64,000 bases of DNA from Spinacia oleracea (lineage: Eukaryota; Streptophyta; Magnoliopsida; Caryophyllales; Amaranthaceae): contig NC_079488.1 in assembly GCF_020520425.1 (NCBI RefSeq), positions 9,835,747 to 9,899,746 on the forward strand, given 5' to 3'. Under the pieces are notes generated by a model, which had not been told where the DNA came from, searched no databases, and worked only from the letters and a program-made list of their open reading frames with translations. A program made the translations under genes and the position numbers. Below are positions 25,465 through 49,687 of this stretch, in pieces; position 1 is the stretch's first letter; every line of letters starts with the position of its first letter.

Positions 25465-25932
25465 TGTTGTGGGATCTTTTACGGTGATGACGTGTCACGC
25501 GTTCCTCGGAGGTATCAAGTATGAGCTGGCACGAACTTCTGGCAACCTGCAAAACAAGAATATTCCCGTAGGAATATTCCCTCCGATGCTTAAGTAAGTA
25601 TAAGCTAGAGAGAGAAGTAATTTGTAGAGAGAAGGCAGAGCAAAGATAGTTTTAGGTTGGTGGGAATGAATTGATTGCTCTTCTACCTAGGGATCTGCAC
25701 TATTTATAGTGCTAGGGTTTCTCGGGAACTGGTCCTGCATGATTGAGTGTTTACGCAAGATTGGGACACGTGTCCTGCATTGGTTTTGGAGGCTTGTTTA
25801 GGACCAATGTGGACCTCTTAATCGCTTGGGCCTGGGCCCTGTGAAGTTGAGAAATGCCCGTAGGCAAGCTTTTGGGCCCTTTTTTCTGGGATTTGATAGT
25901 ACGGTCATGTGGCATTCTTTTAGGCCACATCA
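25465..25932 (-). repeat. Element 2 3' LTR
   Basis: Read on the minus strand it starts TGATGTGGCC and ends CCCACAACA. An ACTATAAATAGT TATA box lies at 25699-25710. A polypurine tract (TTGAGGGGCAAA on the minus strand) adjoins it at 25933. It points toward REM-A. Confidence 0.93.
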
Positions 25933-26377
25933 TTTGCCCCTCAAGGAGAGTGCCCCTTGTCACTGTGGGGTAGGCTGCTTGATCGGAGGGAGCGCCACGT
26001 GTGAGGGCTTTTCAGAGCTTAGATTTTCCTTTAAAAGCTTCAATTCCTCTTTCATTTTTCTTTTGTTACTTCAGAGCGATTTTTCTTTAGAGAGAGAAAG
26101 TAAATTTCGTCCTGCCAAAGATCTGCTTGTGCTTGCGCTTGAGTGTCCTTGGATTTGCTGTCCAGTGTTCTTGAGGGTTTAGAGGATTTGCCAAGACTTC
26201 TCATCAATTTGATAATTTTCTGGTAAGTTTTCTATCAAAACCTTGTTTTTTGTATGCTTGTGGGACCTCTCTTGTTTATTGTTTATAGTGTTCTGTGGAG
26301 GCGTCTTGGGGGTTATGACACCTATCCCTTTCATTCTTTTGCTAAAGTCAGACGTCATGTCCCTTATGCAGGACGGC

Positions 26378-29026
26378 ATGGCTCGAATTAGACAGACAGC
26401 CAACGTGCGTGCATGGGCTGCACCGCGAGAGGGGGACGATAGGGTTCCTTTTTCGAACCCGTCCCAAGGAAGTAGGAGTGGAGTCCGTTCCTCCCATAAT
26501 ACAGGAGACGGGGCCATTAGAACGGCACATTCTCCTAGAAGAAGGAAGAATGTGGCTTCCCGTCCCCGCGTTCCACGCGAGGATTTTGAAGATGACTCCT
26601 CTAGCTCTTCAGACGAGGAGTTTGCAAAAAATCTTCCTCCTATGGTCCGGGGGAAGGAGGACGTCAATCTGTTTCCGTCGAATATCTTTCCCAGCATGAA
26701 ATGGCTGCGGTACCTGAGGGAGCAGGGACGTGACTTTGAGCGTTTTCTGCTCTTGCCCCCAGGTTTTAGTCTTAGGAGCCCTCGACCTCATGACTCCGTG
26801 GACCAACTCTCCCGAGGAGAGGTAGTCGTTTACACTGCTGCCTTTAGGTTGGGCCTTAGATTTCCATTGCACCCCTTTGTGATGGACGTTTTAGAGGGGT
26901 ATGACATTGGCCTTGCTCAATTGACGCCCAACTCTTGGGCAAATGTTTTTGGTTTTATCGCCAAGTGTGCTTTGAGCGGCGTCACCCCTTCCTTTCCTGC
27001 TTTCCTTCGTCTCGTAGTCATTGCCCCTTCTTCTCGTTCTCCACAGGGGTGGTTCACCCTTTACAGCCGTCGGGGATATAAGACGGTGGTGGGTAAGACC
27101 TCTAGTTGGGTTTGGTGGAGGAAGAAGTGGTCTGTTGTTCCAATGGAAGACCTCTCTCTTTCCAGACGTCTTTCTTGGTGGAACAGTCGGCCCCGCTATT
27201 TGTCTAGAGCTGACACCTACCCTCGCCTCTCGTCCAGAGAGTGGGGACTAGTGAAGCCCTTGTTCCAGGCTGAGATGTATCGGCTGTCGTCAAAGAGCCA
27301 TGCCTGGGTGCCTAATGCTTGGCTTCCCCATGTCGGCCATTTTACCAATATAGTCTTTCTTTCGGCCGTTGGTCTTTGTTCCTATTTGAGTAGAGGTAGT
27401 TCCCCAATAGATTTTCAAACATTTTTTCTTCATCTTTTTTTTTTTTTTTTTTTACTAACCCTTGGCTTTGTAGGTTTTGCCATGGATCGCTTATCCTCCG
27501 AAGACAAGGGTGTAGTGGAAGTACCCGCTTGGCTGTCCGAGGTGTATACCGAGGATATTCTCAAGACCGTGGAGGCCAAGAAGAAGGACTCCTCCAAGAA
27601 GTCCAGCGAGGGTGCCTCTGGCGACGTCGCCAAGGTTTTTTTTTTTTTTTTGCCTCTGTTCATTTCTGATCATGATTTGGTCGCTGATTTCCTTTATCTT
27701 TAGGAACCCACCTTGCCGGCTACGAAGAAGCGTCCGGCATCTTCGACGGAGGCTCCTAAGCCAAAACGGCCCTTCTTTAAGAAGATGGGTCCGGCCGATG
27801 CTGTCACCAAGCCGTCGGTACCAAAACCGTCCGCTCCCCTGGCTGAGGGGGAGGTTCTTCCTACCCAGACGCCCATTCTTCCTCCTGAGCAAAAGGAGGT
27901 TCCTTCCCAGGTGGACACCGGAATGGATGGTACTGCCGGAGCAGCTGCTGACCAAGTAGCAGTCGAACAGACTGAGGCGGCTGACGCCACCACCTTGTCC
28001 AGAGAGGACAAGGGTAAAGGCAAGGAAACTGAGGCTCCTTCTACTGATAATGCCTCTACTCCTCCTGCAGCCTCGCCAATTGGTTAGCGTCTCTGTACTT
28101 TAAATCTGTCATATCAGGTTGGGATTTTGCACGATGTTTGTTAATCTTGGTGTTTGGTTCAGTTGAGATGTTCAAGCGGATGCGTCGGGCCGAGGTGGCG
28201 AGCATCCCTCCTTCTGCCGGTTTTAGCTCAGAGGCGAAGGATAAGATCCTTGCAGATGTGTATGCGGCCATCCCTGAGGAATACGTGAGGTCACTCCCCG
28301 GGATTGACTTGGGATTCTTTGGGTCAATTCAGTCTCTCGTCCTTGATATGAGACACACCCCGTGGTTATGATTATATGTGTACGCTATTTTTAATTCTAT
28401 GTTGTCTTTGGCAGCTTTTCATTCGCTGTGCCGAGAGTAGGAACTATCGCTTTGATATGCACAATGAGATGCTCAAGCACAAGGACCAGATCGAGAATCA
28501 TGAGCAATATGCTGAGAAGACGGCCAGGTTGATCAACTTGGACGCGGACAAGAAGATCGCTCTGAAGACGGAAGAGCTGAAGAAGGCCGAGGAGGACGCT
28601 GAGAAATATGAAGAGAAGTTGCTGGAACATGAGGGGCGGCTTGCCGTGCTGAGAAAGGAGTACTCTTCTGTCTCAGAACGGGTGACTGATTTCTCTTCCA
28701 AGGTGAACGTTCTGGAAGGTCAGCTCAAGGCCATGCAGGGGAAGATCGAGGTCGTGCGCAAGGAGGCTGCAAGCTCTTTTAAGTTGGGCGAGGAGTCCAT
28801 CTTGGAGAGTGCCCAAAAGGCGTGGGATCAGTCTATGGACGGGAAGGATTTTTCCTGGTTCAAACGCCGTATCTCCCACCAGATAGCCGTCTCGACGGCT
28901 AGGCGCTTAGGCTTAGATCCTCCCGAGTTCGTTAGTGATGGGGAGGAGGATATAGAAGAAGACGAGATGAACTCCCCTGAAGGCCAAGACGTCCAGGACG
29001 AGAGTTCTATTGCCCCTCATCCTTGA
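26378..29026 (+). CDS. Antisense Transposase_28-like gene of element 2 (multi-exon)
   Basis: Runs opposite to gag from near the 3' LTR. A 5' UTR intron (donor near 26223, acceptor at 26371) is followed by ATG 26378. Exons: 26378-27395, 27474-27634, 27704-28082, 28163 to about 28370, 28415-29026. The first three junctions keep phase; the exon 4/5 join does not resolve cleanly in frame. Exon 1 holds LRFPLHPFVMDVLEGYDIGL and AQLTPNSWANVFGF, matching the putative gypsy-type transposon family (Pfam Transposase_28). Then a Pro/Lys-rich linker and a long coiled coil (KTEELKKAEEDAEKYEEKLL). The C-terminus is acidic. A weak TATA-like TTTAAAA lies near 26030. Role unknown; homologous in layout to 45395-48816. 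Confidence 0.7.
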
Positions 29027-29254
29027 GCAGTTTTTCTTGCAGTTGGTTTGGATGACGCCGTGGGCGTTTGTAATAACTTTGGTGCCTTCTGGCATTTATT
29101 TGATTTGGTTTGTTTGCGCTTTGGGCGCTATGTATAAACAATTTGTGCCGTTGTGCACTGTATTTTATTTTAATTCTATCAGTTTGTTACTGATTTCTTA
29201 TGAATTCTTTCTTAGGGTCCGATTGTTGGACAGAAACCTCAGTGTTTTAGGTGA

Positions 29255-29470
29255 TCAGCCTAATTTGAGGCGCTAATCTAGGCCACTTCTCAGGTCGTCA
29301 AACGATTAGTCTTTTTAGACGCCATCCAAGGAGGAGGTCTTATGTTTGAATGTTTTGCGAGCCTAATTTGAGGCGCTAATCTAGGCCACTTCTCAGGCCG
29401 TCAAACGATTAGTCTTTTTAGACGTCATCCAAGGAGGAGGTCTTATGTCTGAATGTTTTGCTCTTGTTTG
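29255..29470. repeat. Two tandem copies between element 2 genes
   Basis: A unit of about 100 bp (GCCTAATTTGAGGCGCTAAT ... CCAAGGAGGAGGTCTTATG) occurs twice. A shorter repeat AGGCCGTTTTGTGGGCTCTG occurs twice at 29692-29750. Confidence 0.8.
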
Positions 29471-29776
29471 AGTCTTTCCTTTTTTGGGCGCTTTTCGAAG
29501 AAAAGGCGTCATGCTGGATGTCTAAACCCTTTGTGTTTATTAGCACTAGGTATTTTTTATTTAGCGGATATGGACGCCACTTTAGGAATTGTTTTCTGGT
29601 GAGTTTCTTTCAACTGAGACTTGTATTCGTCAGATAAGTGTTAATTTATTAAATTGCTTGCTACATTCACCGCGTCTTAGGCGTGCATTTACAGGCCGTT
29701 TTGTGGGCTCTGAGTACAATAGCTAGGCCGTTTTGTAGGCTCTGAGTACAATAGTTACCCTAATGATGTTCTACTC

Positions 29777-32305
29777 TCAGCCACTTTCTTCAATTTTGAC
29801 CGCTTCTATTTGGACGGGTCCAATTTCTTTGGTGACCTGGGGTTCATCTTCATGCTTTCGTTTTCCTCTGACTTCAGCAGAATCTTGCTTCCATGCTGAC
29901 GGGTTGAGAGTCGTCAGGTAACAATCCCTAGCCTGTTGTTGATCTCCATGTATGGTGCCTATAACTCCATCATCGCACACGAACTTTAGAAGCATCAGAT
30001 GGGTGACGACTACAGCCTTGATCTTGTTTAAGGTGAGTCGTCCCAAGATGACATTGTATGCAGTCAGGTCTTTAACAATTAAGAAGTCCACCTCCATATT
30101 TCGCCCATTCTTCCTATCTCCCATTCGAACTGGCAGAGTGATGACGCCAACAGGATGAATGATACTCCCTCCAAAACCAATGATGGGATAGTGAATTCTT
30201 TCGATGGTTTTGGGATCGTGTGCTAGGCGATTGAGGCATTCTAGACTCATTATGTCGGACGAGCTTCCCGTGTCTATTAGTATGCGTTTAACTCTCATGT
30301 TAGCTATCTTGAATTCAACCACAAGGGGATCATCATGCGGCGTGGCTATCCGTCCGCCGTCTGACTCACATATTTCAATCTTTGGGAATGGATCCATGGG
30401 CGCTTTGGCTGACAGCAGCACTTGTCCTAAGCGGCGAGCATAATCCTTATGTCCTCTCATGGTAGGTCCTCCAGCGGCCGGTCCTCCAGATATGACGGCT
30501 ACAAATCCTCCGTCGCTGTGTTGTCCCTTAGTCGGCGAGGCAGGTGACTTGTTCCTTTTGTATTGGTTTTTTCCAAAGCCATGAGCATTCTTCTGTAAGT
30601 AGTTCTTGAGATGTCCTTTGGAGGCTAGACCATCTAAAGCCCTCTTCAAGCTTCTACAATTCTTGGTTTCATGTCCTATATCTTCATGGAACTGGCAATA
30701 TAATTTGGGATCTCGAGTCTCAGCAGGAGACTTCATGGGGAAGGGTCGATCAAGGTCGTACCTTGCCCCCACATCTTTTAGTATGGTGAGAAGGTCTGTG
30801 TTGTACTCAAAATATTCCCGTTCTTGCGGTCGTTCTCTCTTGTGCCCAGGAAAGTTGGTATCGTGCTCTTTTGAGAGAGCCCATGTGCCATTTATCCGTG
30901 GGGATTTTCGGTCCACCTTATCCTTCTTCCCGGAGGAGTCTGTTGTTTCTCCAATCCTCCCTTCCTTTGACGCGCTGCATATTTTCGTTGCATGGATAAA
31001 TGCTTCAGCCTCGTCCATGACCTCTGCCATAGTCCTTACACTCTTCTTAACTAGGTCAAACTTGAAAGACCCCTTCTTCAATCCCCTGATAAAATTATCA
31101 AAAGAGACACCATCGGGCAAGTCTGGGATCTGTCCTGCTTCCAGATTGAAACGCTTCACGTAGCTTCTTAGGGACTCGTCCTTCCCTTGCTGGATCCGTC
31201 CTAAATGCATGCTAGTTTTCCTTTCTTCCTTGTGTGCCATGAACCTCGTAGAGAACAAAGTCTGTAATTCGCTAAAAGAGGAAATTGATCCTGGGGGCAG
31301 CCGTTCAAACCATTTAGACGCTACTCCCTTGAGCGTGGCTGGGAATTATTTGCACCAAGTGGCTTCATTGGTTCCCTGAACGTACATGTGATGGCGGTAT
31401 GCGACAAGATGCATGTCGGGATCGGTGGTCCCGTCATAAGCTTCAATGGTAGGAGTTTTTACTTTGGGTTCCTTCGAGGCATTCATGATCTCGTCAGAGA
31501 AAGGGGTACTCATGTGCCTTAACGCCAGGTTGTTGAGTCCTTGCTGAATATGATAAGTTGGTTCACGGCGGTTTGATAGCAGGCGGGGGCGCATGCTTAC
31601 CCTATGGGGCGTCATCTGGGTCGGTCCACGTGTAGTGGGATAAAATGGCGGGTCTTCCATTACAGGAGTGGACCCGGTGTCTGATAGTTCAGATTCAGCC
31701 TCATAATGTTCTTGACGCCTTGAAGCTGGTCGCAAGATGGCTGCGGGGCTTCCCCTAGATGATGGTCGTATGACCGGGTCCCTTCGAGGTAAGAAGGTGG
31801 GTGGGTCACAACCATCTTCCGAGTGCTCAGGCACAGGGCTAACTCCCCTGCTTGCTTGTGGACGAGAACCTTCTCCAGCTCTCCAGACGTTGGACCTGAG
31901 CGGCATTCTGCTTATCCGATTGACGCCTAGACTGAGGGGCCTCTGCGGAGCCGTCCTCTCAGCGCAGTAGATCAGCATATTTTTCCGAATTTCTTCTTGC
32001 AATGTAGTGCTCATCTGTTGTCGAAAAGTCTGATTCATTTGCTGTTGGAATCCTGTTAAGATCTCGCGTAGGGAGCCCACCGATACTGGTAAATCTAGAT
32101 TCTCATCCAACACGACGTCTCGGACGCTGGGGCTTAGATGGCCGCCTGGCGGAGACGCCTCGGTTATTGGTTCTTCTTCTACCACCACCTCCGTTTGCAT
32201 TCGTTCTGGTGTGTTCCCTGCATTTGCAATTCGATTGGCCTCTTCAATGTGTCGTCTCTCTTCTTCTCCACCAGCGTGCTCTGTGTCAGAGTGTAGTTCG
32301 GCCAT
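29777..32305 (-). pseudogene. Element 2 gag-protease (one in-frame stop)
   Basis: From ATG 32305 the frame holds a charged N-terminus, the gag domain (DPDMHLVAYRHHMYVQGTNE; FERLPPGSISSF; RIQQGKDESLRSYVKRFNLE), a zinc-knuckle-like CQFHEDIGHETKNC and an aspartic protease with ILIDTGSSSDIMSLE and TAYNVILGRLTLNK. A single TAA at 31348-31346, right after WCK, interrupts the frame; the same position in element 3 is coding, so this is a nonsense change. The frame ends at 29777 with no RT. Confidence 0.88.
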
Positions 32306-32316
32306 GCCACTGTACC

Positions 32317-32334
32317 TCCCCACAGACGGCGCCA
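32317..32334 (-). promoter_or_regulatory. Element 2 primer binding site
   Basis: On the minus strand reads TGGCGCCGTCTGTGGGGA, two bases from the LTR. Identical to the sites of elements 3 and 4. Confidence 0.9.
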
Positions 32335-32336
32335 AA

Positions 32337-32804
32337 TGTTGTGGGATCTTTTACGGTGATGACGTGTCACGCGTTCCTCGGAGGTATCAAGTATGAGCTG
32401 GCACGAACTTCTGGCAACCTGCAAAACAAGAATATTCCCGTAGGAATATTCCCTCCGATGCTTAAGTAAGTATAAGCTAGAGAGAGAAGTAATTTGTAGA
32501 GAGAAGGCAGAGCAAAGATAGTTTTAGGTTGGTGGGAATGAATTGATTGCTCTTCTACCTAGGGATCTGCACTATTTATAGTGGTAGGGTTTCTCGGGAA
32601 CTGGTCCTGCATGATTGAGTGTTTACGCAAGATTGGGACACGTGTCCTGCATTGGTTTTGGAGGCTTGTTTAGGACCAATGTGGACCTCTTAATCGCTTG
32701 GGCCTGGGCCCTGTGAAGTTGAGAAATGCCCGTAGGCAAGCTTTTGGGCCCTTTTTTCTAGGATTTGATAGTACGGTCAGGTGGCATTCTTTTAGGCCAC
32801 ATCA
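32337..32804 (-). repeat. Element 2 5' LTR
   Basis: Near-identical to 25465-25932; TATA at 32571-32582 on the minus strand, reading into gag. Confidence 0.93.
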
Positions 32805-32999
32805 GTACTCATAAACTTAAAAAATGGTGTTCATTTTTCAAATATGGTACTCAAAAGTTTCTAAAATGATGGTGTAATTACCATCGTGCCCTCATATATG
32901 ATATGGGTCTCTCTGCCATTTGTTAAACTATGTTCTCTTCGCCGAAATAAGGTGTTTTGATCTAATCCTTAAAGTTGTCGTCTGTCTTAGTTTAAATCG

Positions 33000-33240
33000 G
33001 CACAGTTCGATTTGATGTCCTAGTGTAACTTAACTTTGACCATATTTTAACTCTAGTTTAGACTCTGTTCTTTAACTTAACTTTGACCATATTTTAACTC
33101 TAATTTAGACTCTGATCTTTAACTTCAATTTGACCATATTTTAACCATATTTTAACTCTAGTTTAGACTCTGTTCTTTTCGACGAAATAATTGGCACAGT
33201 GTAGTTTGGTTTAGTTCGATTTGATGTCCTAGTGTAATTG
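33000..33240. repeat. Tandem repeat in REM-B downstream spacer
   Basis: About three units of TTAACTTTGACCATATTTTA plus ACTCTAGTTTAGACTCTG. The spacer 32880-33570 shows no gene. Confidence 0.65.
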
Positions 33241-33570
33241 ATATTAAAGTTTCATAAACCCTGCATCACACAGGTGTTACCCTCGTTCAATAAATGCTGC
33301 CATGTCCTACTTTAGAGGGTTTTACTGATAAATAGTACTTCAGTAAAAAAAACAGATCTGGTGAAGAAAACCTGACCTCTTCATAAGCTAAAACTTAGAG
33401 AATTATAGTATTACATTTATATATATACACAAGTTCTAACTAAAAAGTTCAGATCCTCACTGAAAAGTTCATCTGCCAATGCCCATTTATCAAGCTTTTT
33501 CACAAGAAGAGACATGAAACCAAAACAATATAGGCATGAAACCGAAACCAAAACCAAAGAAGAGACTTAA

Positions 33571-37765: not shown

Positions 37766-38104
37766 TTTTCTTTCTCTGTGTTTCTCTCTCCTCCTTCAGT
37801 CCTTTGTTTGAGAGTGTAAACTGCAGTGTTCAACTTATTGGAACTGTAAAAAAAGAATATTTACTACTCTCAATTCAGGTGGTAAATCCACGTGGCAACA
37901 ATCTGGCTAGATAAATGTGAACCACGTAACTTGTTACTCGGTATATAGTTGGGATTCAATTCAACTTATGTCCATTAATTTCGCAGAATTTCCGCAGAAA
38001 TATTGGCCATTTCAAACAACTATGGTTAAAGATGGATGTGGGACGGGCCAAGTCCAGTTAGATTTGGGCCGGATTCACCTACTCTCGTGCCGGGCGTTTA
38101 TGAT

Positions 38105-38530
38105 TGTTTGGGCTCCCAATTGATTCTCAATTGGGCCACTAAGTCCAAAGCCCAATGGCTCTAAACAAACAGCATCAAACCTACCAATGGCTAGTCAGTC
38201 ATCCATCAAGGCCCAAGGCCCAATAGCAATAAATGACCTATGGGCATTTATTATGCAAACACTATAAATAGGCCGCCAAGGCTCACACCTCAAGGTACGT
38301 CCAATTTATCGCCTTAAGACTACTCTTCTAGAGAACTTCTCTCTAGAATCCGAGCATCGTTCTTACTTAGGCATCGGAGGGGCTTTCCTCGGAAACACCC
38401 CCGAGGCTAGTGACTTTGCTCTTGTGCAGGTGAATTCGGACTCGACTCATTCAAGCAAGCAAGATCTTCAACACATACGAAAGGGCCTTCATTCGAAGCC
38501 CATTGTTTCCATCTTTACAACACCGGAACA
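38105..38530 (+). repeat. Element 3 5' LTR
   Basis: TGTTTGGGCTCCC to CACCGGAACA; TATA-like ACTATAAATAGG near 38269. Confidence 0.93.
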
Positions 38531-38533
38531 ATT

Positions 38534-38551
38534 TGGCGCCGTCTGTGGGGA
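38534..38551 (+). promoter_or_regulatory. Element 3 primer binding site
   Basis: TGGCGCCGTCTGTGGGGA, three bases after the LTR; identical to elements 2 and 4. Confidence 0.9.
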
Positions 38552-38600
38552 AGAACACTTCAAAGCCTTTTGAAAGACATTAACCACCTCTTTCTGCAAA

Positions 38601-39950
38601 ATGGTTAATGATGTTATCAACAACGATGATGACGATATGATAGTGCGGTCAGATTCGGAATCTGACGAAGAGGAGCACCCTCAATCGATGGCGAGGTCAC
38701 AGCCAAGCAGAGCTACGACCGCCACAAACGCAGGACCTCCGATTCCAACTAGGGAAGAGCTCACTGCGGCCATGACCATCATGCAAAACTTCCTCTTCAA
38801 TGAGAAGCAGCAAGGATTGGCAAAAGACCGCAGAGAAGAGAGGAGGACTAGGCGAAGGCTGAACGAGCAGCCCAGTGTAGAGGTGTCCAGACCCGAACGA
38901 GAGCTCCTCCCCTTGACAGGAACACACCTGACGTCGAGATGGATGGAAAGCACGTGGGACACCCAAAAAAGGGCACAACAACAACCAGATTGGTTTGCAA
39001 AACCATCGCCTACTCCAACAGCTCTCCAAAGCGAATCGACTACTCGTAACACTCGGATCCGAAGCTTGGTGCTCAGCAGGTTGAGGCCATCGGTCCACTC
39101 AAGGCTAAGACCCTCGATCCATACGAGACTCGGGGTAGGCGAATCAAGCAGATCTGGCGAACGACCCGAGGTCAGTAGCCGAGAAAGAAGAAGAGACAGG
39201 AGGCATGATCGAACCCCTAGCCCCCATCGTACGCCCGAACGTTCTAATCACAGAACCTCGGCGAACGAGGGCATCAGGGCTAGACTCGGGAAAAGAATCA
39301 TGACTCCCACGTCATCCCCTTTCTCGGACGAGCTGATCAGGGAAGAGATACCAAAGGTAAGACTGCCAGCACACCTGACGTATAGCGGAATCACTGATCC
39401 AAGGGATCATGTCATCTCCTACGAGCAACAAATGTTCTTGAGCCCCTACTCCGAAGCATGTTGGTGTAAATATTTCCCAACCACGCTAACCGGAGTGGCG
39501 GGAGAATGGTTTAGATCGCTGCCGAAGGGATCGATCAAAAGCTGGAAGAAGCTGAAAAAGAGATTCTGCACACAGTTCGTGAGCAACAATCGCCCCGAGC
39601 GAACCACGGCAGAACTGACCTCGATTCAACAAGAAAAAGACGAAAGTCTAAGAGAGTTCATGGCCAGATTCATGAAGGAATCAACAAGCATACCAAACTT
39701 GCAGCCAGATGTGGCCATCTTCGCCTTGAAACACGCGCTCCAGGAGGGGAAATTCCGTGATAAGCTCTCGATGAAAAACCCCTCCAAAATAGCCGACGTG
39801 CTCCAAATGGCTGATGCGTTCATCAGAACCGAAGAGTTCAACAAAGCCGCCGCAAGGTTGAAAGGATCGTCGGATCCGAGAGAAGGAAAAAATACCCAGA
39901 GCAAGCCCGAGGGCGGCTCAAGGAAAGGGAAGGAGAAAGTAGGAGTTTGA
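38601..39950 (+). CDS. Element 3 gag
   Basis: 449 residues from the first ATG after the PBS. An acidic and Arg-rich N-terminal half precedes the retrotransposon gag domain at about residues 265-400 (WCKYFPTTLTGVAGEWF, FCTQFVSNNRPERTTAEL, QQEKDESLREFMARFMKE). It forms the particle. The frame ends with TGA at 39948-39950, but the same frame stays open beyond into the zinc knuckle and protease, so this stop either reduces readthrough product or is a recent nonsense change. Confidence 0.9.
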   Translation: MVNDVINNDDDDMIVRSDSESDEEEHPQSMARSQPSRATTATNAGPPIPTREELTAAMTIMQNFLFNEKQQGLAKDRREERRTRRRLNEQPSVEVSRPERELLPLTGTHLTSRWMESTWDTQKRAQQQPDWFAKPSPTPTALQSESTTRNTRIRSLVLSRLRPSVHSRLRPSIHTRLGVGESSRSGERPEVSSRERRRDRRHDRTPSPHRTPERSNHRTSANEGIRARLGKRIMTPTSSPFSDELIREEIPKVRLPAHLTYSGITDPRDHVISYEQQMFLSPYSEACWCKYFPTTLTGVAGEWFRSLPKGSIKSWKKLKKRFCTQFVSNNRPERTTAELTSIQQEKDESLREFMARFMKESTSIPNLQPDVAIFALKHALQEGKFRDKLSMKNPSKIADVLQMADAFIRTEEFNKAAARLKGSSDPREGKNTQSKPEGGSRKGKEKVGV

Positions 39951-40859
39951 GAGACGAGCCCGAAGAAAGACGGGAGAAGGGGTGAACTTCAACCCAGATA
40001 CACTAACTACACTCCACTAACTCTGCCCCGAAAAGAAATCTTTAGCCTCAACAGAAATGATGAAAAGTGGAAACTACCTGGGAAGCTCAAGTCCAACCCA
40101 GCTCGGAGAAACAAGAACAAATGGTGCGAGTTTCATGATGACTTCGGTCACCACACCGAAGAATGCAACTCGCTGAAAGACAACATTGAGGACCTCGTTC
40201 GCCGAGACTACCTGAAACAGTACTTGTTAGACCGAAGGGAGGAAAAAGAAAAGGCCGCGAGTGGCAAACAACACGAGCAACCCCAGAAAAGGGTCTACGA
40301 AGCAACAGGGCACAAGAAGAATGACATCCTAGTGGTGTTCGGGGGACAGAAGTCTGGCCAGGCCAGCAAGAAACACCTAAGAGCTCTCTCCCATCGAGTC
40401 AACTTCAGCACGGTGGGAGACAACCAACCACACCCCCCGAACATGACCTTCACTGCCGATGATTGCTTCGGAGTCCAGTACAAACACGACGATCCTCTAG
40501 TCATTTCTATGGACCTCAATAACCACAACGTACACCGAGTTTTGGTCGACGGAGGAAGTGCCGTCAATATCATCTTCAGAAACTGCTTCGAACAACTGAT
40601 CCTCGAAGAGTCAGAGGAAGCATTGACGAAAGTCAGTTACCCCCTGATCGGATTCAACGGATCCGCAGCTATCCCTCGAGGAAAGATCACCTTGCCAGTC
40701 ACAGTGGGCGAAGGCCAAGCAGCAAAAACCCTTCGGGACGAATTTCTGGTGATGGACTGCGATTCCGTATACAACGTAATCATGGGAAGAACCATGATTC
40801 ACAAGATGCAAGCAGCTGATGATATACGTCTCGGATGCAGGATTCGCCGAACGAATTAG
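39951..40859 (+). CDS. Element 3 zinc knuckle and protease region
   Basis: Continues in the gag frame after the TGA. It carries a zinc-knuckle-like WCEFHDDFGHHTEECNSLK (near 40110-40170) and an aspartic protease with VLVDGGSAVNIIF (near 40540) and VYNVIMGRTMIHKMQ (near 40768). It stops at TAG 40857-40859. Pol overlaps the last 41 bases in the +1 frame. It has no good start codon of its own after the TGA, so expression requires readthrough or reflects damage. Confidence 0.85.
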   Translation, partial: ETSPKKDGRRGELQPRYTNYTPLTLPRKEIFSLNRNDEKWKLPGKLKSNPARRNKNKWCEFHDDFGHHTEECNSLKDNIEDLVRRDYLKQYLLDRREEKEKAASGKQHEQPQKRVYEATGHKKNDILVVFGGQKSGQASKKHLRALSHRVNFSTVGDNQPHPPNMTFTADDCFGVQYKHDDPLVISMDLNNHNVHRVLVDGGSAVNIIFRNCFEQLILEESEEALTKVSYPLIGFNGSAAIPRGKITLPVTVGEGQAAKTLRDEFLVMDCDSVYNVIMGRTMIHKMQAADDIRLGCRIRRTN

Positions 40860-43800
40860 AGGTGATCAAGAGGTTGCGAGAAGAACCTGCCACACCGCCG
40901 TTCGAAAGCCCAAATTAGGAGACGGTTCGGAGGCGGAGAAAGACGCTCCAGGAGAGGAGAGTGAGGCAAAAAGGAGGAAAGCAGGCATGAGCAGCTTATC
41001 TCCCGCAGAGGTCGATGCCCGCCCCGAAACCCTGTCTCCTGAACCAGATCAGGAAATGGAGGATATCTTCCTCGAAGAGGGTTCAGACAGGAGCGTCCGA
41101 ATAGGCAAGGGCCTAAGCTCGGGGCTCCGAATCGATTTGATCCAACTACTCAGGGATCACAAAGACATTTTTGCATGGTCGGCAGCAGACATGCCAGGGA
41201 TAAATCCGAAGCTGATTTGTCACAAGCTGGACGTCAACGCCGAATCTCGGCCAATCAAACAAAAGAAGAGGAATTACTCCTCGGAGAAAAACAGAGACAT
41301 CGCCGAAGAGGTGAAAAAGTTGCAAGAGGCCGGATTCATCGAGCCATGCATGTACCCAAAATGGTTGGCCAACGTGGTGATGGTCAAGAAAGAGAACGGC
41401 TCCTGGCGAATGTGCGTGGATTTCACAGATCTGAACCGAGCCTGCCCCAAAGACTGCTATCCCCTGCCAAGGATAGATCAATTGGTTGACTCCACCAGCG
41501 GCCATGCACTGCTCAGCTTCATGGATGCCTTTTCAGGCTACCACCAAGTGTTCATGCACCCCGACGACAGGGCAAAGACAGCATTCATCACAAGCGCAGG
41601 AGTGTTCAACTACAAAATGATGCCTTTCGGCTTGAAAAATGCCGGAGCCACCTACCAGAGGCTAGTTGATCACGTCTTCGCCGACCAGAAAGGGAGGAAT
41701 GTCGAGGTCTATGTGGATGACTCCATCGTAAAAAGCATCAAGGAGGAAGACCATGTCAAAGACTTGGCAGAGACCTTCGGAAATCTGAGGAAATACAGCA
41801 TGAAGCTGAACCCAAAAAAATGTGTCTTCGGGGTGAAGTCAGGGAAGTTACTCGGATTCATGGTGAGCGAAAGAGGAATCGATGCGAACCCAGACAAAGT
41901 CCAAGCGGCATTGGATTTACCCGAGCCGAAGACCAAGAGAGATGTGCAGAGGCTAACCGGCAGGTTAGCCGCATTAACAAGGTTCATATCAAAAGTCTCG
42001 GACAAGGGAGCCCCCTTCTTCAAAGCACTGAAACCAAAGAGCCTCCCCGGGGGAGAAGCAGAGCCAGTCAAGAAAAAGGGGGTCCCGAGGAAGGTGGATC
42101 CCGAACTGATATGGGAACAGGAGCAAAAAGAAGCTTTTCAGCAACTCAGAGCCCACCTAGCTCAACTGCCGACACTGGCCAGACCAAAGGAGGGGGAAAC
42201 CCTGTACCTATATGTCGCAGTCAGCCCTGGAACCGTCAGCGCAGTGCTTCTTCGGGAAGAAGAGAAGAAGCAACAGCCAATCTACTTCACCAGCCGAACA
42301 CTCACAGGGGCCGAAACTCGGTACCCGCTCATCGAGAAAGTCGCATATGCAGTAGTGGTAGCTGCACGAAAGCTGAGGCCATACTTCGACTCCCACCAGA
42401 TCACAGTACTAACTGACCAACCGCTCGAGAAAGTACTCGACAAAATAGAGAGGTCAGGAAGATTGGCTGCCTGGGCCTTCGAACTATCAGAGTTCGGCAT
42501 CAAATATCAGCCGAGGACCGCAATCAAAGCACAGGCGTTGGCAGACTTCTTGGCCGAGTGCTCATACCAGGAAATGCTAGATGATACGAAAAGCACTTGG
42601 GATGTCTTCACTGACGGATCTTCCACAATAAACGGCTCAGGAGCAGGAGTTGTACTAATCCCCCCGACGGGGAAAAGCATAGAGTATGCATTGAAGTTCG
42701 GCTTCAAAGCAACTAACAACGAGGCCGAATATGAGGCCGCAATCGCAGGGATAGAGCTTTGTTTATCCCTGGAGGCCGAGCATGTTTGCCTCAAAACTGA
42801 TTCCCAGCTTGTAGCCAACCAGATCCGAGGGGAGTATGAGGCCAAGTGGCCCAGCATGACAGCTTACTTGGAAAAAATTAAATCCTTAACGTCAAAGTTA
42901 AGATCCTTTGAAATCATCCTCATCCACCGAGGACAAAACACGCAAGCAGACGCACTGTCAAAACTCGCAAGCTCAACACTCATCGACCTAAACAGGTCGG
43001 TCCACGTGGAAGTTCACCAAGAGAGAAGCATTGACTTGCTACCCACCACAGTATGCAGTTTACGTACCGAACTCAGCTGGATGGACGCAGTAGTTGCATA
43101 CAAAGAAAGGGGAGAACTTCCCGAAGATAAGCTGCAGGCGAGAAAACTGAAAAGATTCAACAGGTGGTTCATCATCAGCGCCGAAGGAGAGCTAATGAGG
43201 AAATCATTCTCCGCTCCACTGCTAAAATGTGTGGGTCCAACAGACGCTGACTACATCCTAAGAGAAATCCACCTCGGGATATGCGGAAACCACATCGGAG
43301 GCAGGACATTGGCACATAAAGCCCTTCGGGCCGGATACTGGTGGCCCACTATGGTTTCCGAGGCAAAGCAGATGGCAAGGAAATGCGAGAAATGCCAAAA
43401 GTTCGCACCAGCCATCCATCAACCAGCTCAAACCCTACAATCAACACTGTATCCCTTACCATTCGCACAGTGGGGGTTAGACATCATTGGTCCCTTCCCC
43501 TCAGCTACGAACCAGAAGAAGTGGTTGATTGTAGGAGTCGACTATTTTAGCAAATGGATCGAAGCTGAAGCTGTCTCCTCCATCACCGAACCTCAGGTCC
43601 GCAAGTTCATATGGCAGAACATCATCACAAGGTTCGGCATACCAAGACTGATGGTCTTCGACCACGGGAAACAGTTCGACAACACCCCGTTGCAAAAATG
43701 GTGCAAACAGTTCGGCATACACCTAGCTTACTCGGCAGTTTGCCACCCACAAAGCAACGGGCAAGCCGAAGCTGCTAACAAACTCATCCTCAATGCACTC

Positions 43801-44334
43801 AAGAAAAGAGTCGAGGATGACAAAAACAAATGGTTAGAAGAGCTACCCGGAACGCTATGGTCCCTTCGGACCACTGAGAAAGAAGCTACCGGGCAAACAC
43901 CGTTCCACCTTGTATATGGATCCGAAGCTGTCATCCCTGTGGAAATCGGAACAGAAAGCTTGAGGATCCAGGCATACAACAGGTATGATGGGCTCCAAGG
44001 AGAAAGCAACAACCAACTTCTGTCCGAAGCTCTCGATCTACTGGACGAAGCTCGGAACGATGCGAGGACACTCAACGCAGCTTATTTGCAGAGGGTCAAC
44101 AAGCATTACAACCGAAGAGTCAACGCCAGACCCCTAAAAGTCGGTGATCTAGTGCTCAGAAACGCCGCCTCGGTTCAGAAAGGACGGATCCATGGCAAAC
44201 TCTCAGCCACTTGGGAAGGACCATACATCATCCATTCCGAAAAAAGGCCAGGCACGTTTATGCTGAAACCGTTAGATGGAACAATCTTGAAGAACCATTG
44301 GAATACCGATGTTCTCAAGAAATATTTTGTATGA
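40819..44334 (+). CDS. Element 3 pol: RT, two RNase H domains, integrase
   Basis: A 1171-residue frame. RT at about 150-400 with the catalytic Tyr-Val-Asp-Asp at 298-301. A Ty3-type RNase H follows at about 455-560 (YLYVAVSPGTVSAVLL), then the second, archaeal-type RNase H at about 593-720 (WDVFTDGSSTINGSGAGVVL; NNEAEYEAAIAGIELCL), the mark of Tat elements. Integrase has an HHCC-type finger (about 815-860, ending CEKCQKF), a core with Asp 888, Asp 948 and Glu 984 (35 residues between the last two, DD35E) and a C-terminal GDLVLRN region. No chromodomain is seen. All catalytic residues looked for are present. It copies element RNA into DNA and inserts it into the genome. Confidence 0.96.
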   Translation: MIYVSDAGFAERIRGDQEVARRTCHTAVRKPKLGDGSEAEKDAPGEESEAKRRKAGMSSLSPAEVDARPETLSPEPDQEMEDIFLEEGSDRSVRIGKGLSSGLRIDLIQLLRDHKDIFAWSAADMPGINPKLICHKLDVNAESRPIKQKKRNYSSEKNRDIAEEVKKLQEAGFIEPCMYPKWLANVVMVKKENGSWRMCVDFTDLNRACPKDCYPLPRIDQLVDSTSGHALLSFMDAFSGYHQVFMHPDDRAKTAFITSAGVFNYKMMPFGLKNAGATYQRLVDHVFADQKGRNVEVYVDDSIVKSIKEEDHVKDLAETFGNLRKYSMKLNPKKCVFGVKSGKLLGFMVSERGIDANPDKVQAALDLPEPKTKRDVQRLTGRLAALTRFISKVSDKGAPFFKALKPKSLPGGEAEPVKKKGVPRKVDPELIWEQEQKEAFQQLRAHLAQLPTLARPKEGETLYLYVAVSPGTVSAVLLREEEKKQQPIYFTSRTLTGAETRYPLIEKVAYAVVVAARKLRPYFDSHQITVLTDQPLEKVLDKIERSGRLAAWAFELSEFGIKYQPRTAIKAQALADFLAECSYQEMLDDTKSTWDVFTDGSSTINGSGAGVVLIPPTGKSIEYALKFGFKATNNEAEYEAAIAGIELCLSLEAEHVCLKTDSQLVANQIRGEYEAKWPSMTAYLEKIKSLTSKLRSFEIILIHRGQNTQADALSKLASSTLIDLNRSVHVEVHQERSIDLLPTTVCSLRTELSWMDAVVAYKERGELPEDKLQARKLKRFNRWFIISAEGELMRKSFSAPLLKCVGPTDADYILREIHLGICGNHIGGRTLAHKALRAGYWWPTMVSEAKQMARKCEKCQKFAPAIHQPAQTLQSTLYPLPFAQWGLDIIGPFPSATNQKKWLIVGVDYFSKWIEAEAVSSITEPQVRKFIWQNIITRFGIPRLMVFDHGKQFDNTPLQKWCKQFGIHLAYSAVCHPQSNGQAEAANKLILNALKKRVEDDKNKWLEELPGTLWSLRTTEKEATGQTPFHLVYGSEAVIPVEIGTESLRIQAYNRYDGLQGESNNQLLSEALDLLDEARNDARTLNAAYLQRVNKHYNRRVNARPLKVGDLVLRNAASVQKGRIHGKLSATWEGPYIIHSEKRPGTFMLKPLDGTILKNHWNTDVLKKYFV

Positions 44335-44739
44335 TCTCTGTCTGTAAGCCAAGTAAGTTGTTTAATGAGAAGAGGAAAGCCGTTGGCACCATGTGTTTCA
44401 TTAAACCTATCTCTATATTTATTGTCCCTTTATATATACATGCAGCCTCGGATCTGATCAATCCGAGACTTAAAGCAGGTTGACTTTGCCCATTCCTTGA
44501 TAAAATGCAAGAAATGACCAAATCACACACTTCGGGGAATCGTCCAGAATCCTCGGATTCGCGATACCTCGATAAAACTTGTTCGCAACAAACAGTCGCT
44601 CAAATCAAGTTATAAAACTTCGGCTCAGATCCACGGATCGCCAAAGTCATAACTGAGAGGCAGACTAGCGATCTCTTGCCCAGGTTTCCGAACCACAAGA
44701 GATCGGAAGAACAATCCAGACCTCTGAGCAGATCGACGG

Positions 44740-45010
44740 ATTTGAAGAGTCTGGAAATAAAAGAGTCTCTTAGCAGATCTACGGATTTGAAGAACTCGCA
44801 AAATTAAAGAGTCTCTTAGCTGAAGAACTCGCAATATTAAAGAGTCTCTTAGCAGATCTACGGATTTGAAGAACTCGCAATATTAAAGAGTCTCTTAGCA
44901 GATCTACGGATTTGAAGAACTCGCAAATTAAAGAATCTCTTAGCAGATCTACGGATTGGAAGAACTCGCAAATTAAAAAGTCTCTTAACAGATCTACGGA
45001 TTTGAAGAGC
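44740..45010. repeat. Tandem repeats between element 3 pol and the antisense gene
   Basis: About six to seven units of 38-46 bp: AAGAGTCTCTTAGCAGATCT, ACGGATTTGAAGAACTCGCA. They lie in the gap between two convergent genes, as in element 2. 44335-44739 and 45011-45394 show no gene. Confidence 0.85.
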
Positions 45011-45394
45011 TCGCAAGATCAAAGGGTTTTTAGCAAGTCTACAGAAAGAAGAGCTCGAAAATCTACGGATTCAAAGACTTAAAATTGCGGAAGTACAAAA
45101 AATTTGAAAAGAGGCAGCCAAGTAACAAACATTCATTTTTCATTCAATATCTAGGGGAAGTACAAATACATCAAACAGCTCGATACATACCCGAGGACCC
45201 TCAAAAATTGAAAACAAAATGAAACAGTTAAAATCGGCAGCCATCAACAGACAATACCGGCCTACCGAAGTACTAAGAAAGCAAAAAGAAACAAGTACAA
45301 CGCAGCGCCGAGGCAAAAGGGGGAAAGGCAAGCACACATTCGGAAGTCCTCAACTGGAACCGACCGACTCTGAAGAAGACGACTGCCCGAATCC

Positions 45395-48300
45395 CTAACT
45401 CTTGGGAGTCTCAGGAGCAGCCCCTAGGGGAGCATCCTTCGAAGAACCCCCAGCAGTAGTGTCACCTTCGGAAGTCGCCTTCTGGGCCCGAGCCTCTGCA
45501 AGAGCAGCTTGGCGTTCAGCTTCAGCTTCGTCCCGATCAGCCTGGCACTCCACCAAGTGATCCTGGGCCCTCATCCAGAGAGGAACTTTCTCATTTCAAG
45601 GGAAATGAGGCATATGCTTCGCAAACATGCGCCGAGCACCCAGGATGCCATTCCAGTACTGCTCTTTACACTGATCGGCAGTGTAGAGGTCAACTCGCTC
45701 TTGCTCCAACTTCCGAATGGCCGCATCCTTCTCTCGGATCTTCAGCTGGAGAACAGGCACCTTGTCAGCTTGATTCCGAATAATCTCCCGGTGCTTGACA
45801 AACTGCTGAAGCCTCGCCTCCGCTTCCTGGCTCTGCTTAACGGCCCCCTCAAATTTAGACGTCATCTCCTTGAGAAGACTGTCTTTTTCTTCAAGTTCGC
45901 TCGCAAACTTGGCGGCCATTTCTTTCCTCTCCTTGTCGAAGGAAGCTATCTTTTCAGCATCCTCTTCGACTTGGAAAGTGAGCTTCCCAACTTCGGCCCC
46001 GATCTGTTCAGCCGATGCTCTAGCCTCACGACTGTACTGAAGGTACAGTTGCTTGACCTCCACCAGCTCGGAGAAGAGCTGCCCAGCCTTCTGGTCCAAA
46101 ATAGGGATATCACGAGCATAAGCCTCCTGATATCTCCTCAGTTGTCTCTCCTCAACCGAGCTACACTCGGAAGCAAACGAGGACCAGAAAACAGCCTGGG
46201 AGAGAAGGAAGGATGAGGAAAAGTAGGAAAAACATAAAACAAAAACGCAACTCAAAAGAGAAAATCCAACACTTACCTCATTCAGATAGTACTGGGCCAT
46301 CATAGCCGGGTTCCTCTCTTCAGCTCCAGGAACCCTCCACTGCGGGTTGGCCCGAAGAAGATTCTCCCGAGCAGCTTCGGGACCCACCAAAGATCCCACA
46401 TGAGCCATGGGGTTCTCCCCCAAAACCGGAGCCCTAGCATAGCGAGCCATCGCCTCCCTTACCTCCTCGGGGATCCGTTTCAGCGGAACATCCGAGCAAG
46501 GGTCAGCGTGGATCAATCTATCCAAAGCCGAGGTCGAAGTAGAGCCCAAGGTCGAGTGGCGCCTCTTCCTCGTCAGACCCTGTTCGGGCTGCTCCTCCTC
46601 AGCAGAAGGGACCTCCTTCTCAGCTTCGGGAACCTCAATGTGTGCTTCGGTGAGGTCCACCATCTCCTTATCTGGACTTTTCTCTCTTTCGAGAGAAACG
46701 TCAGCAGATTCCCTCTTCTGCTCGGCCACAATAGGGGCATCCGAGCCAGGAACAAGGTCGGCTTCAATCGCCTCCATCACCTTGGTGATATCCTGAATCT
46801 CGATCCCTAAAGCAGCAGACGGCTTCAGCGGAGAGGGGATGGTATCTTCCTCAGCCAACGGTTGATCCACGGGCGGCGGTTCCGCAACCACCACACTCTT
46901 TAACTTCTGCCCTGGCAAGGGCATGAAGTGAAGGAGATTCTTGGGAGGAGGCATGTCTTCCGAAACCGTTTCCTACAAAACAAGCATTCAAAGGTCAGCT
47001 TCGGAAAAGGGAAGGACGAACTACAAGAAAACTCCAAGTCAGAACAAATACCTTCTCCGAGGACTGAGAAGCCTTCGCCTTCTTCGGATGCGTGGAAGAC
47101 CTCAGAAGAGTGCTACCCTTCCTTTTCTTTTGATCCTAAAAAGGAAACCAAGGGTCAATAAATTTAAAAAGAAGACAAAGGAAGAAATTAAAAAAAAAAA
47201 AAAAAAAAGGTGAAGTACCCGGTTCCTAGATAAAGAGATATCTATCCGAGCCGGAGAAGAAACCGAAGGAACGGCACGTGGCACAGCGTCAGTCCCCGGA
47301 CCCTAAAAAGATGGTCCAGGACCAAGACGTTAGCCGACGGCCAACCAAAAAGAGAGACAAACAAAAAGGCGAAGGCTGATAGATACACTCACCGGATCTG
47401 AAGTTGTCCTCAAATCAGGAAGCATGACCTTCACTGGAACAGCTTCGGGAGAGGAGGCAGAATCCCACGGATCAGCTCGAACTTCGGATATCCGAGCAAC
47501 ACCCGAAGGAGACAACACATAATCCTTCAAGCGAGGATTACGAGGATTCTCTTTCCCGAACTTGTAGTCAGGAGCCGAGTCGTGAATAGTCTTCAGATCC
47601 AAAGAGATGCCCAAAACCACAGGATCAAGGCAGCTAAAGCCGTACTCTGCAGAAACAAAACACAAAAACGAGTCAGTAAAACGAGACAAAAAAGAGGAGG
47701 ACAAACTCACTGAAACACGGTCCCAGCCGAAAGACACCTACCCCTGTCAAAAATCCTGCTGAGACCGGCAACAGCAAGAATGTCCTCCCGCAAGATATAG
47801 TTGAGGTTCGGGAGCCAGCTAGACGGCAGTTTGTAGTTGTCCTCCCGAGCCAAAAACCACTGGAGGAGATCCACGTAGTGGTGATGGTTCCGATCCGGAG
47901 CAGCCACGCTTCCCATATCAGGATCAGGAGTCACAAACCACTTCGGAGGGCGATAAAAATTGGGATGCTTCGGATCCGTCGGCACGCGAACGAGCAACCA
48001 CTCCGTCTTCCAATTATGGTCAGAACTGAGGTAAGGATATGCCGTAATATAGTTCGGCTCCCCTTTTCTTCGGGACTTTTTGTTGATGATGGTCCACCAA
48101 CCATACCCATCCCCCTTTGAAGCGTGATTGAAAGACAGATCGTGGAGATCCCGAAAAACGGCGACAGAGCAGGGAAAGTTAACAAAATCGCACACCCATC
48201 TAAATCCGATGATGTGCCTCATAGATTTGGGTGTAAGTTGGGCCAAACTGATGTTGTACGACACCAGGAGCTCGGAAATGAACGGATCCAAGGGAAAACG

Positions 48301-48816
48301 GAGACCGTTCTCCAAGTGATGAGTATACACAGAGATGAACCCCCTCGGCGGATGAGTCACCCGAGGACGCTCCTGATCGGGAAGCTCGCACCAGTACCCC
48401 AAGGCGTGCTGGATTCCGTATAGCTCCTCGGCCCTCCGATGGTAGTTCCCCAGCTTCGCCTCCACCAACCAGTCACCACTGACCGATTTCTCCAACGGAC
48501 CATCGATCTTAGTGGTCTCATGCAAGATCGGGGCATACTTGCCCTGCGGATCAGCTTCAGTCCAATGAACTGGAAACTCAGGGTAAGGACGGCGTACACC
48601 CGAAGAACCAGCTTTCTTTCCAGAAGTTGCGCGTTCAGACACGCTAGACCCGCCAACAACATCATCTTTGGAAGCATCCCAACCAGTCGAACGCCTCTCC
48701 ACCGGCCTCTCCGAAGGCCGACCCCTTGAAGTTTTCTGTACCCTTCCCGAAGGCACATTCTCCCTCTCACTAGAGGAGCCAACGACGAACTTACTTTTGC
48801 CCCTATTCTTTGCCAT
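45395..48816 (-). CDS. Antisense Transposase_28-like gene of element 3 (six exons, one internal stop)
   Basis: Exons: 48816-47742, 47646-47393, 47302-47219, 47135-47052, 46972-46277, 46195-45395; all junctions are GT-AG and keep phase, about 997 codons. Exon 1 holds GLRFPLDPFISELLVSYNIS, LAQLTPKSMRHIIGF and WWTIINKKSRRKGE, related to the putative gypsy-type transposon family and to the element 2 antisense gene. Then short basic and Ser/Pro-rich exons (DQKKRKGSTLLRSS), an acidic linker, and a long coiled coil (FDKERKEMAAKFASELEEK). A TGA at 45598-45596 interrupts exon 6, but the frame continues 66 codons to TAG at 45397. CTATAAATA at 49071-49079 gives it its own promoter. Function unknown; not needed for the copy-paste chemistry in the + strand pol. 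Confidence 0.78.
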
Positions 48817-49070
48817 GGTCGCGAATTCTCGGTCTAGGGTTTAGATTGAGGAGTAGAAGGAAGAACGAAGAAGTAAGGAGAATTCAGAAACAAATTACCT
48901 TTTTCCGAAGCGGAATTCGCCGATAAAACGAACAACACAAGTTCCCGAAGTCTAAAGCTGGCCGAATTTCGTAGATCTGAAGAAACTCGAAAACCGCGAT
49001 CGCCGGGAAAAGAGAAGAAGTTTGTCCAAAAGAGAGAGAAAGTAAAGTTTGAAGGAAGTTTAGCGCCCGG

Positions 49071-49080
49071 TATTTATAGA
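49071..49080 (-). promoter_or_regulatory. TATA box for the element 3 antisense gene
   Basis: On the minus strand TCTATAAATA lies about 255 bp upstream of the antisense ATG, 180 bp inside the 3' LTR boundary. It is in the internal region, so distinct from the LTR promoter. Confidence 0.6.
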
Positions 49081-49256
49081 AAAGGGAAGCGTATCAACTT
49101 CCTTTCGACCCACGATCTCCACGACACAATACAACTCCCAACACTTGTCATCAATGCAAATCATCCCTTTTCAAAAAAAAAGAGGGAACTTTTGGACTTC
49201 TGACAACTGGAAACCCACCCATTTAATTCTAAATGGAGCGGATCTGGGGGGCATGT

Positions 49257-49682
49257 TGTTTGGGCTCCCAATTGATTCTCAATTGGGCCACTAAGTCCAA
49301 AGCCCAATGGCTCTAAACAAACAGCATCAAACCTACCAATGGCTAGTCAGCCATCCATCAAGGCCCAAGGCCCAATAGCAATAAATGACCTATGGGCATT
49401 TATTATGCAAACACTATAAATAGGCCGCAAAGGCTCACACCTCAAGGTACGTCCAATTTATCGCCTTAAGACTACTCTTCTAGAGAACTTCTCTCTAGAA
49501 TCCGAGCATCGTTCTTACTTAGGCATCGGAGGGGCTTTCCTCGGAAACACCCCCGAGGCTAGTGACTTTGCTCTTGTGCAGGTGAATTCGGACTCGACTC
49601 ATTCAAGCAAGCAAGATCTTCAACACATACGAAAGGGCCTTCATTCGAAGCCCATTGTTTCCATCTTTACAACACCGGAACA
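49257..49682 (+). repeat. Element 3 3' LTR
   Basis: Two visible substitutions relative to the 5' LTR; preceded by the purine tract GGATCTGGGGGGCATG. Confidence 0.93.
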
Positions 49683-49687
49683 ATGAT

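Follow-up and report, generated by a model that had tools for sequence, protein, structure and literature searches.

Element 2, a long terminal repeat (LTR) retrotransposon at positions 25465-32804 of a 64,000-nucleotide stretch of the spinach (Spinacia oleracea) genome (hereafter the window; C2:9835747-9899746, in a genome of 894 Mb), very probably represents a long-lived Retand family that lacks reverse transcriptase (RT): its lineage lost pol once and multiplied with presumably borrowed RT and integrase, and selection has kept gag, the protease and a gene on the strand opposite gag (the antisense gene). The selection test is what is new here; antisense open reading frames (ORFs) of this kind, with the Transposase_28 domain (PF04195) typical of Retand and the PMD domain (PF10536) typical of Ogre elements, were known already; the original prediction, made from the sequence alone, had said so of extra antisense ORFs in Tat elements.

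The window contains four LTR elements (element 1, 1-11205; element 2; element 3, 38100-49684; element 4, 59446-61855), and each of the first three has a gene on the strand opposite gag, beyond the coding core and before the 3' LTR. This anatomy is as originally described, with the correction that the interval quoted for elements 1 to 3, 25465..49682, takes in elements 2 and 3 only. The claim that elements 1 and 2 have lost the RT/RNase H/integrase block and kept gag-protease and the antisense gene was upheld: a tblastn search of the window (E up to 1e-3) with the pol of element 3 matched only that element itself, and elements 1 and 2 are therefore taken to be without the pol block. In element 2 the 5' LTR (32337..32804, minus strand) adjoins the primer binding site TGGCGCCGTCTGTGGGGA and holds a conserved R/U5 hairpin; the gag-protease region (29777..32350, minus strand) has one in-frame stop in gag of this copy; a spacer with tandem repeats (29027..29776) stands at the site of the missing pol; and the antisense gene (26372..29026, plus strand; five coding exons plus a leader intron) lies next to the 3' LTR (25465..25932, minus strand). 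The two LTRs pair at 99.36% identity, with a 5-bp target duplication, GTACT, on their outer flanks, and their divergence dates the insertion to about 0.25 million years (My) ago, at the substitution rate of 1.3e-8 per site per year that is used for all datings here.

Structure of the antisense gene and selection on it

The antisense gene of element 2 is read, on the plus strand, as a predicted leader intron (26223..26371; GT donor and AG acceptor in all six aligned copies) followed by exon 1 (26372..27395), which carries PF04195 (49.6 bits, E=4.9e-13, against a gathering cut-off of 26.2 bits) and ends in phase 1; exon 2 (27474..27634), indel-free in five compared copies and with one indel in L034; exon 3 (27704..28082), a low-complexity linker with a basic patch that by eye resembles a nuclear localization signal (PKPKRPFFKK, identical in eight of the nine copies aligned there, the ninth differing at one residue); exon 4 (28163..28364, 3' boundary uncertain); and exon 5 (28441..29026, 5' boundary uncertain, perhaps 28415), which is coiled-coil-like. 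The model of the gene predictor omitted the PF04195 part, and the first coding donor, at the 3' end of exon 1, was placed by hand. In the six copies the GT and AG ends of the leader intron and of introns 1, 2 and 3 are kept wherever they are not deleted or gapped; the donor of intron 4 as modelled is not conserved, and the boundary between exons 4 and 5 is therefore uncertain. The predictor scored the antisense-gene strand above the opposite one both here (68.7 versus 28.0) and in element 3 (99.8 versus 33.5). Of the spliced layout that the original prediction called conserved, a shared position is established for one intron, between elements 2 and 3 (each read as five exons): the first coding intron lies at the same aligned residue and in the same phase in proteins only 27% identical. 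Element 1 has a single predicted intron.

Selection was measured as the ratio of nonsynonymous to synonymous divergence (dN/dS; Nei-Gojobori, pooled pairs, codon bootstrap, stop codons skipped) over 10 RT-less copies with the whole layout. This set omits L017, L019, L020, L022, L025, L027 and L035, which are interrupted, incomplete or distant, and a wider set that includes L019, L020, L022 and L025 gave much the same values. For the antisense gene the ratio is 0.13 (bootstrap range 0.10-0.17) in exon 1, 0.13 (0.08-0.19) in exon 2, 0.48 (0.35-0.62) in exon 3, 0.12 (0.08-0.20; scored on 28165-28341) in exon 4 and 0.16 (0.13-0.21) in exon 5; for gag it is 0.15 (0.12-0.19; nine copies) and for the protease 0.10 (0.08-0.13). 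The original prediction had proposed a check for neutral evolution (dN/dS near 1), and four of the five exons lie instead at 0.12-0.16, like gag and protease, by which a neutral antisense frame is ruled out. Among the eight closest copies (dS 0.11-0.16) the antisense exons give 0.16-0.22 (exon 3, 0.55), gag 0.17 and the protease 0.16, and between two deep groups (dS 0.77-1.5) the ratios are 0.06-0.11 (exon 3, 0.39). As a control, the other forward frames give 0.66-4.3 and the remaining reverse frames 0.70-5.5; the reverse frame that shares its third positions with the true frame gives 0.12-0.66, which is low, yet in every row of the comparison higher than the value of the true frame.

Insertions and deletions (indels) follow the exon structure. 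Per kb and per copy, across six copies, they number 0.8, 0, 2.1, 6.9 and 1.4 in antisense exons 1-5, whereas introns 1-4 have 23.1, 23.2, 22.5 and 18.4, the leader intron 12.1 and the spacer 13.1; most of the exon 4 figure is due to an 11-bp difference that sets element 2 apart from the five other copies, close to the uncertain boundary. Low dN/dS, intron-biased indels and kept splice ends thus lead us to conclude that the antisense protein has been maintained in the RT-less lineage.

The same results leave next to no probability for chance open frames, or for a neutral hitch-hiker opposite gag. Opposite-strand frames of 262 and 190 codons do occur in element 3, and most single copies have stops, but PF04195 scores above its cut-off, the indels cluster in introns and spacer, four of five exons have a dN/dS of 0.12-0.16, and the longest stop-free runs on the antisense-gene strand (495, 458 and 345 codons in elements 2, 3 and 1) exceed those of all 500 shuffles of each element (maxima of 392, 297 and 235 codons).

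The element 2 family, its loss of pol and a candidate helper

The genome was searched for PF04195 (150 scored of 2698 candidates, 148 of the 150 on contigs C1-C6), and 25 of the 150 loci were read over 8-10 kb: 20 hand-picked at roughly even steps and five chosen for an element-2-like score. An element-2-like antisense gene is present in 11 of the 20 spread loci (L017 is distant). In all seven that are readable (L016, L017, L021, L023, L024, L025 and L028) RT is absent between gag, or gag-protease, and the antisense gene; the remaining four are interrupted, or their sequence ends before gag. Among the chosen loci, L031-L034, the four with a visible gag-protease, likewise have no RT before the antisense gene, and L035 is interrupted. 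The nine other spread loci represent families other than that of element 2, with RT in L010, L011, L018 (weakly) and L029, integrase only in L012 and L013, and no pol within reach in L014, L015 and L026. In a DNA search the junction of spacer and protease was found at 92% identity or more in all 40 loci scored, element 2 included, of 848 candidates, and at least 24 of these 40 have a PF04195 match, among the 150 scored ones, 2.5-3.3 kb off on the expected side.

The spacer is homologous over most of its length in all six copies aligned (element 2, labelled E1 in these comparisons, and L016, L021, L023, L024 and L028; L016 and L028 are without a middle part), with 73% identity between element 2 and L028 and a dS of 0.66-1.6 from element 2 to L016 and L028. 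Because this spacer, at the site of pol, aligns in all six, pol was lost before they split; the loss happened once in the element 2 lineage, before its members reached a dS of about 0.8. Taken alone, spacer divergence implies an estimated family age of more than 10 My. LTR identities of 96.4-99.4% in seven copies show that the family has kept moving. The 'repeated' outcome is claimed too strongly in the original prediction: it stands at the level of a family for element 2 only, and a single ancient loss explains that family.

One homologous spacer and junction in all six copies, despite a dS of 0.66-1.6, is difficult to reconcile with re-seeding, in which an RT-bearing family with the same antisense gene would repeatedly give rise to RT-less copies, or recombine with them, and would be where the selection acts, the RT-less copies only inheriting its signal. 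We regard this as unlikely: RT stands between gag-protease and the antisense gene in none of the 12 readable copies (element 2 included), and the nearest RT-bearing relative among the loci read is only about 37% identical in the antisense protein. In favor of re-seeding, retroelements are known to switch templates between RNAs packaged together, and an RT-bearing source could lie beyond the 25 loci read of the 150 scored, themselves drawn from 2698 candidates. Descent of element 2 from the family of element 3 was considered and ruled out, the two sharing 37% identity in gag, 30% in the protease and 26-27% in the antisense protein.

For a family that lost pol once, RT and integrase would have to be supplied in trans, and we infer that an RT-bearing relative like L029 is the best candidate helper of element 2. 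L029, together with its neighbor L030, contains RT, integrase and both RNase H domains; its LTRs, as far as they are in reach (442 bp), are 99.1% identical, and it shares the primer binding site and the LTR hairpin of element 2. Compared with element 2, its capsid-protease is 68.5% identical, its N-terminal gag 40.5% and its antisense protein about 37%. A chimeric origin of the element 2 antisense gene, considered in view of the last value against 68.5%, was set aside because the concatenated antisense dN within the family is itself 1.4 to 2.1 times the dN of gag-protease (the larger ratio compares 6 with 5 copies).

The hairpin lies at about positions 339-400 of the sense strand of the element 2 LTRs, where the R/U5 motif CTTAAGCATCGGAG is followed by a self-complementary stretch about 130 bases past the TATA box, with a UACG loop (UUCG in L012, L014 and L026; UNCG-type). 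Its segment is 94-98% identical over 54 bp among element 2, L012, L014, L018 and L029 in LTRs that are otherwise unalignable in reach; for L029, the part of the LTR in reach has a 54-bp segment 98% identical to the element 2 LTR. The hairpin region of L026 is 83% identical over 93 bp, and L018 carries also a second, element-2-type LTR stretch. The hairpin is altered in L018, L019, L025 and L028 and in one LTR each of L031 and L034. The hairpin may serve the RT-less element and its candidate helper alike as an RNA signal. Variant forms of CTTAAGCATCGGAG are found also in elements 3 and 4.

Several points weigh against a long-lived RT-less family with a maintained antisense protein. The pairs behind dN/dS are not independent, and the bootstrap runs over codons only. 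The closest pair, element 2 and L031, is near neutral in exon 1 (dN 0.018, dS 0.028), as expected because decay follows insertion, and only 5 of the 12 indels counted in exons 1, 3 and 5 have a length divisible by three. Only element 2 and L023 have stop-free antisense exons; the other 8 of the 10 copies have one or two stops there, so that most copies cannot make the antisense protein now. Such stops are expected for old insertions and occur also in gag of five of nine copies and in the protease of four of 10 (the gag stop of element 2 lies outside the counted stretch). Their positions are scattered, and scattered stops in single copies together with low dN/dS therefore point to copies that decay individually while the replicating lineage stays constrained. 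(A shared true stop in exon 5 was ruled out; the stops there are at scattered places, with one shared by two copies only.) No TATAWAW match was found upstream of the antisense gene of element 2. The AlphaFold model of its Transposase_28 exon is poor (mean predicted local distance difference test score 39.1), a second model being of similarly low confidence (mean 31.0). Finally, no gag or antisense gene was detected in element 4 (59446-61855), which has fresh LTRs (99.7% identical, about 0.12 My), a GAGAC target duplication and the primer binding site of elements 2 and 3; because it moved without a detectable antisense gene, mobility does not strictly require one in cis. Element 4 also contains tandem repeats with periods of 13-200 bp.

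Elements 1 and 3 and other features of the window

Element 3 has its 5' LTR at about 38104..38530 and its 3' LTR at about 49255..49682 (plus strand; paired as 38100-38532 and 49253-49684, identity 99.3%), an ATGAT target duplication and an age of about 0.18 My. Gag (38574-39950) and protease (39951-40859), both on the plus strand, are in one frame with a stop between them in this copy, and a domain search of pol (40798-44334, plus strand) identified RT, RNase H, an additional RNase H and integrase (RT_RNaseH at 468-566, RVT_3/RNase_H at about 602-723, rve at 888-984). The predicted antisense gene (45596..48816, minus strand; 902 aa) has five exons (48816-47742, 47646-47393, 47135-47052, 46972-46277 and 46195-45596), with PF04195 in exon 1 (42.4 bits, E=8.4e-11). 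Two marks of Retand are present: the additional RNase H between RNase H and integrase in element 3, a mark shared with Ogre, and, in elements 2 and 3, an antisense PF04195 match above cut-off toward the 3' LTR. The coiled-coil-like character of both proteins was judged by inspection and from Pfam matches under threshold. Comparison of elements 2 and 3 at the three codon positions gives identities of 0.42, 0.53 and 0.37 in the PF04195 exon, and those in gag are similar (0.39, 0.45 and 0.31).

In size, element 3 (LTR about 427, internal region about 10.72 kb) is close to the 'Spinacia oleracea 1' cluster (LTR 425, internal 10,719) of a recent Retand survey (Vicient 2025, PMC11963269). That survey already covers non-autonomous clusters, and it reports the PF04195 gene in 97% of recently active Retand clusters; its TRP28 ORFs resemble elements 2 and 3 in having antisense PF04195 between pol and the 3' LTR and tandem repeats there.

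The LTRs of element 1 are about 1.45 kb in full; the 5' copy begins about 1.04 kb outside the window (the upstream sequence was read) and the 3' copy is at 9753-11205, with a full-length identity of 95.2% (97.9% for the parts 1-375 and 10832-11205 inside the window). Gag and protease are at 1835..4240 on the plus strand, and no match to the pol of element 3 was found in this element; the proteases of elements 1 and 2 score below the Pfam cut-off yet align with that of element 3. The antisense PMD-like gene (5906..7531, minus strand) has an exon down to 7055, a predicted intron at 7054-6884 and an exon at 6883-5906. It was read by eye, the predictor giving 4.8 compared with 12.0 for the opposite strand, and was checked by the gain in PMD score: with the predicted 171-bp intron removed, E goes from 0.0027 to 6.6e-7 and the match (profile 33-323 of 347) crosses the junction. 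Of the domains named by the original prediction, then, PF04195 is above cut-off in elements 2 and 3, and PMD in element 1, at 29.3 bits, is below its gathering cut-off of 34.9. An in-frame stop immediately upstream of 7531 is either nonsense or the end of an intron, an acceptor-like site ending there.

By its primer site GTGGCGACTCCACTGGGGA, which we take to match tRNA-Arg, its protease, presumably of Ogre type, and its PMD-like gene, and only by these, element 1 appears Ogre-like. A study of extra ORFs (Neumann 2019, PMC6317226) found PMD in 57% of Ogre elements and Transposase_28 in 23% of those of Retand, and PMD is the commonest non-canonical domain in plant Gypsy elements (PMC9289625); element 1 resembles the Ogre elements of the former study in its PMD-like gene and differs from them in having no RT, RNase H or integrase. 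A GC-rich palindrome (GGCGCC / TGGGCGC) recurs in element 1 at about 1160-1195, 5322, 6960-6990, 7887-7920 and 10230-10260, one of the five sites falling within the predicted intron of the antisense gene. Elsewhere in the genome an element-1-type LTR adjoins another Transposase_28 locus (L005:1850-3192). Outside the elements, a stop-free frame at 17907-18599 matches PF00724 (NADH:flavin oxidoreductase, E=1.3e-42) and is probably part of a host gene. With the PMD and Transposase_28 exons as sequence queries, no solved structure was matched, and scans of viral contigs and of genome contigs found no relative.

Possible roles of the antisense protein

On sequence evidence, the antisense product is probably useful to the RT-less lineage and would aid the element's spread. 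The usefulness to non-autonomous copies proposed by the original prediction, with trans-mobilisation, silencing evasion and targeting as candidate roles, is supported in part, by dN/dS of 0.12-0.16 in four of five exons and by the junction kept in six aligned copies, and is qualified by element 4, which moves without the gene. The protein, with its PF04195 domain, basic linker and coiled-coil-like tail, would work in the nucleus. It would act preferentially on its own family, since a protein that worked equally from any element need not stay in each RT-less copy. It would bind element-specific sequences, most likely the tandem repeats between protease and antisense gene, and binding would either relieve silencing, as VANC does for VANDAL, or assist in handling the element's own RNA or cDNA. 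Silencing evasion is the role that we prefer, if tentatively. VANDAL elements belong to a different transposon class from LTR elements. VANC is an accessory protein of transposable elements that acts on its own kind, and its targets are often tandem repeats that differ between related elements (PMC5735166); its likeness to the PF04195 gene would be one of function, by analogy. The proposed tandem-repeat target is likewise drawn from analogy, which counts against it.

The main rival to silencing evasion is a partnership with Gag or the element's RNA: a structural or RNA-handling role (packaging, nuclear export or nuclear import of cDNA), co-evolving with the element's own Gag and with no link to silencing. 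It, too, is a possibility to be held tentatively. Gag, protease and antisense gene are retained jointly at near-equal dN/dS, the LTR hairpin is conserved as well, and the protein has a basic patch and a coiled-coil-like tail. The antisense gene has introns of its own, however, and in elements 1 and 3 an internal TATA box lies upstream of it, outside the LTR (TATATAT at 7789 in element 1, TATAAAT at 49078 in element 3), which together suggest expression apart from the genomic RNA; each TATA match alone is weak (matches occur also in 93 of 1000 shuffles for element 1 and 55 of 1000 for element 3). In maize, Grande gene23 is reported to have a nuclear product and its own promoter, and it, rice RIRE2 and Silene Retand ORF4 place an antisense gene 3' of pol, as here (PMC7264820); Grande, RIRE2 and Retand are described with gag and pol, unlike the RT-less family under measured selection here. 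TR-GAG elements are non-autonomous LTR elements that keep gag, one of which was shown to transpose (PMC8704663); with GAG as the only ORF they differ from element 2, which adds a protease and an antisense gene, both under selection, and therefore falls outside that group. Searches of the open-licence literature turned up no account of an RT-less Retand family whose antisense gene is under selection.

An RT-less family that keeps the PF04195 gene uncouples this gene from pol; its role must therefore be independent of RT and integrase in the same copy, and a benefit to the gene's own family is implied. We hold it to be rather doubtful, though worth stating, that the family has been an obligate parasite of other Retand elements for more than 10 My, with an antisense protein that counters silencing or guides cDNA in the nucleus in an element-specific way, as a retrotransposon counterpart of VANC; if true, this would explain why an RT-less family carries the antisense gene along with gag and protease. 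Surveys based on RT are blind to such families, among them the Retand survey (PMC11963269), which was mined by RT and whose accessible part contains no selection test and no intron structure. Gag, protease, antisense gene and LTR hairpin make up a natural reduced set, which can be used for testing the role of the gene.

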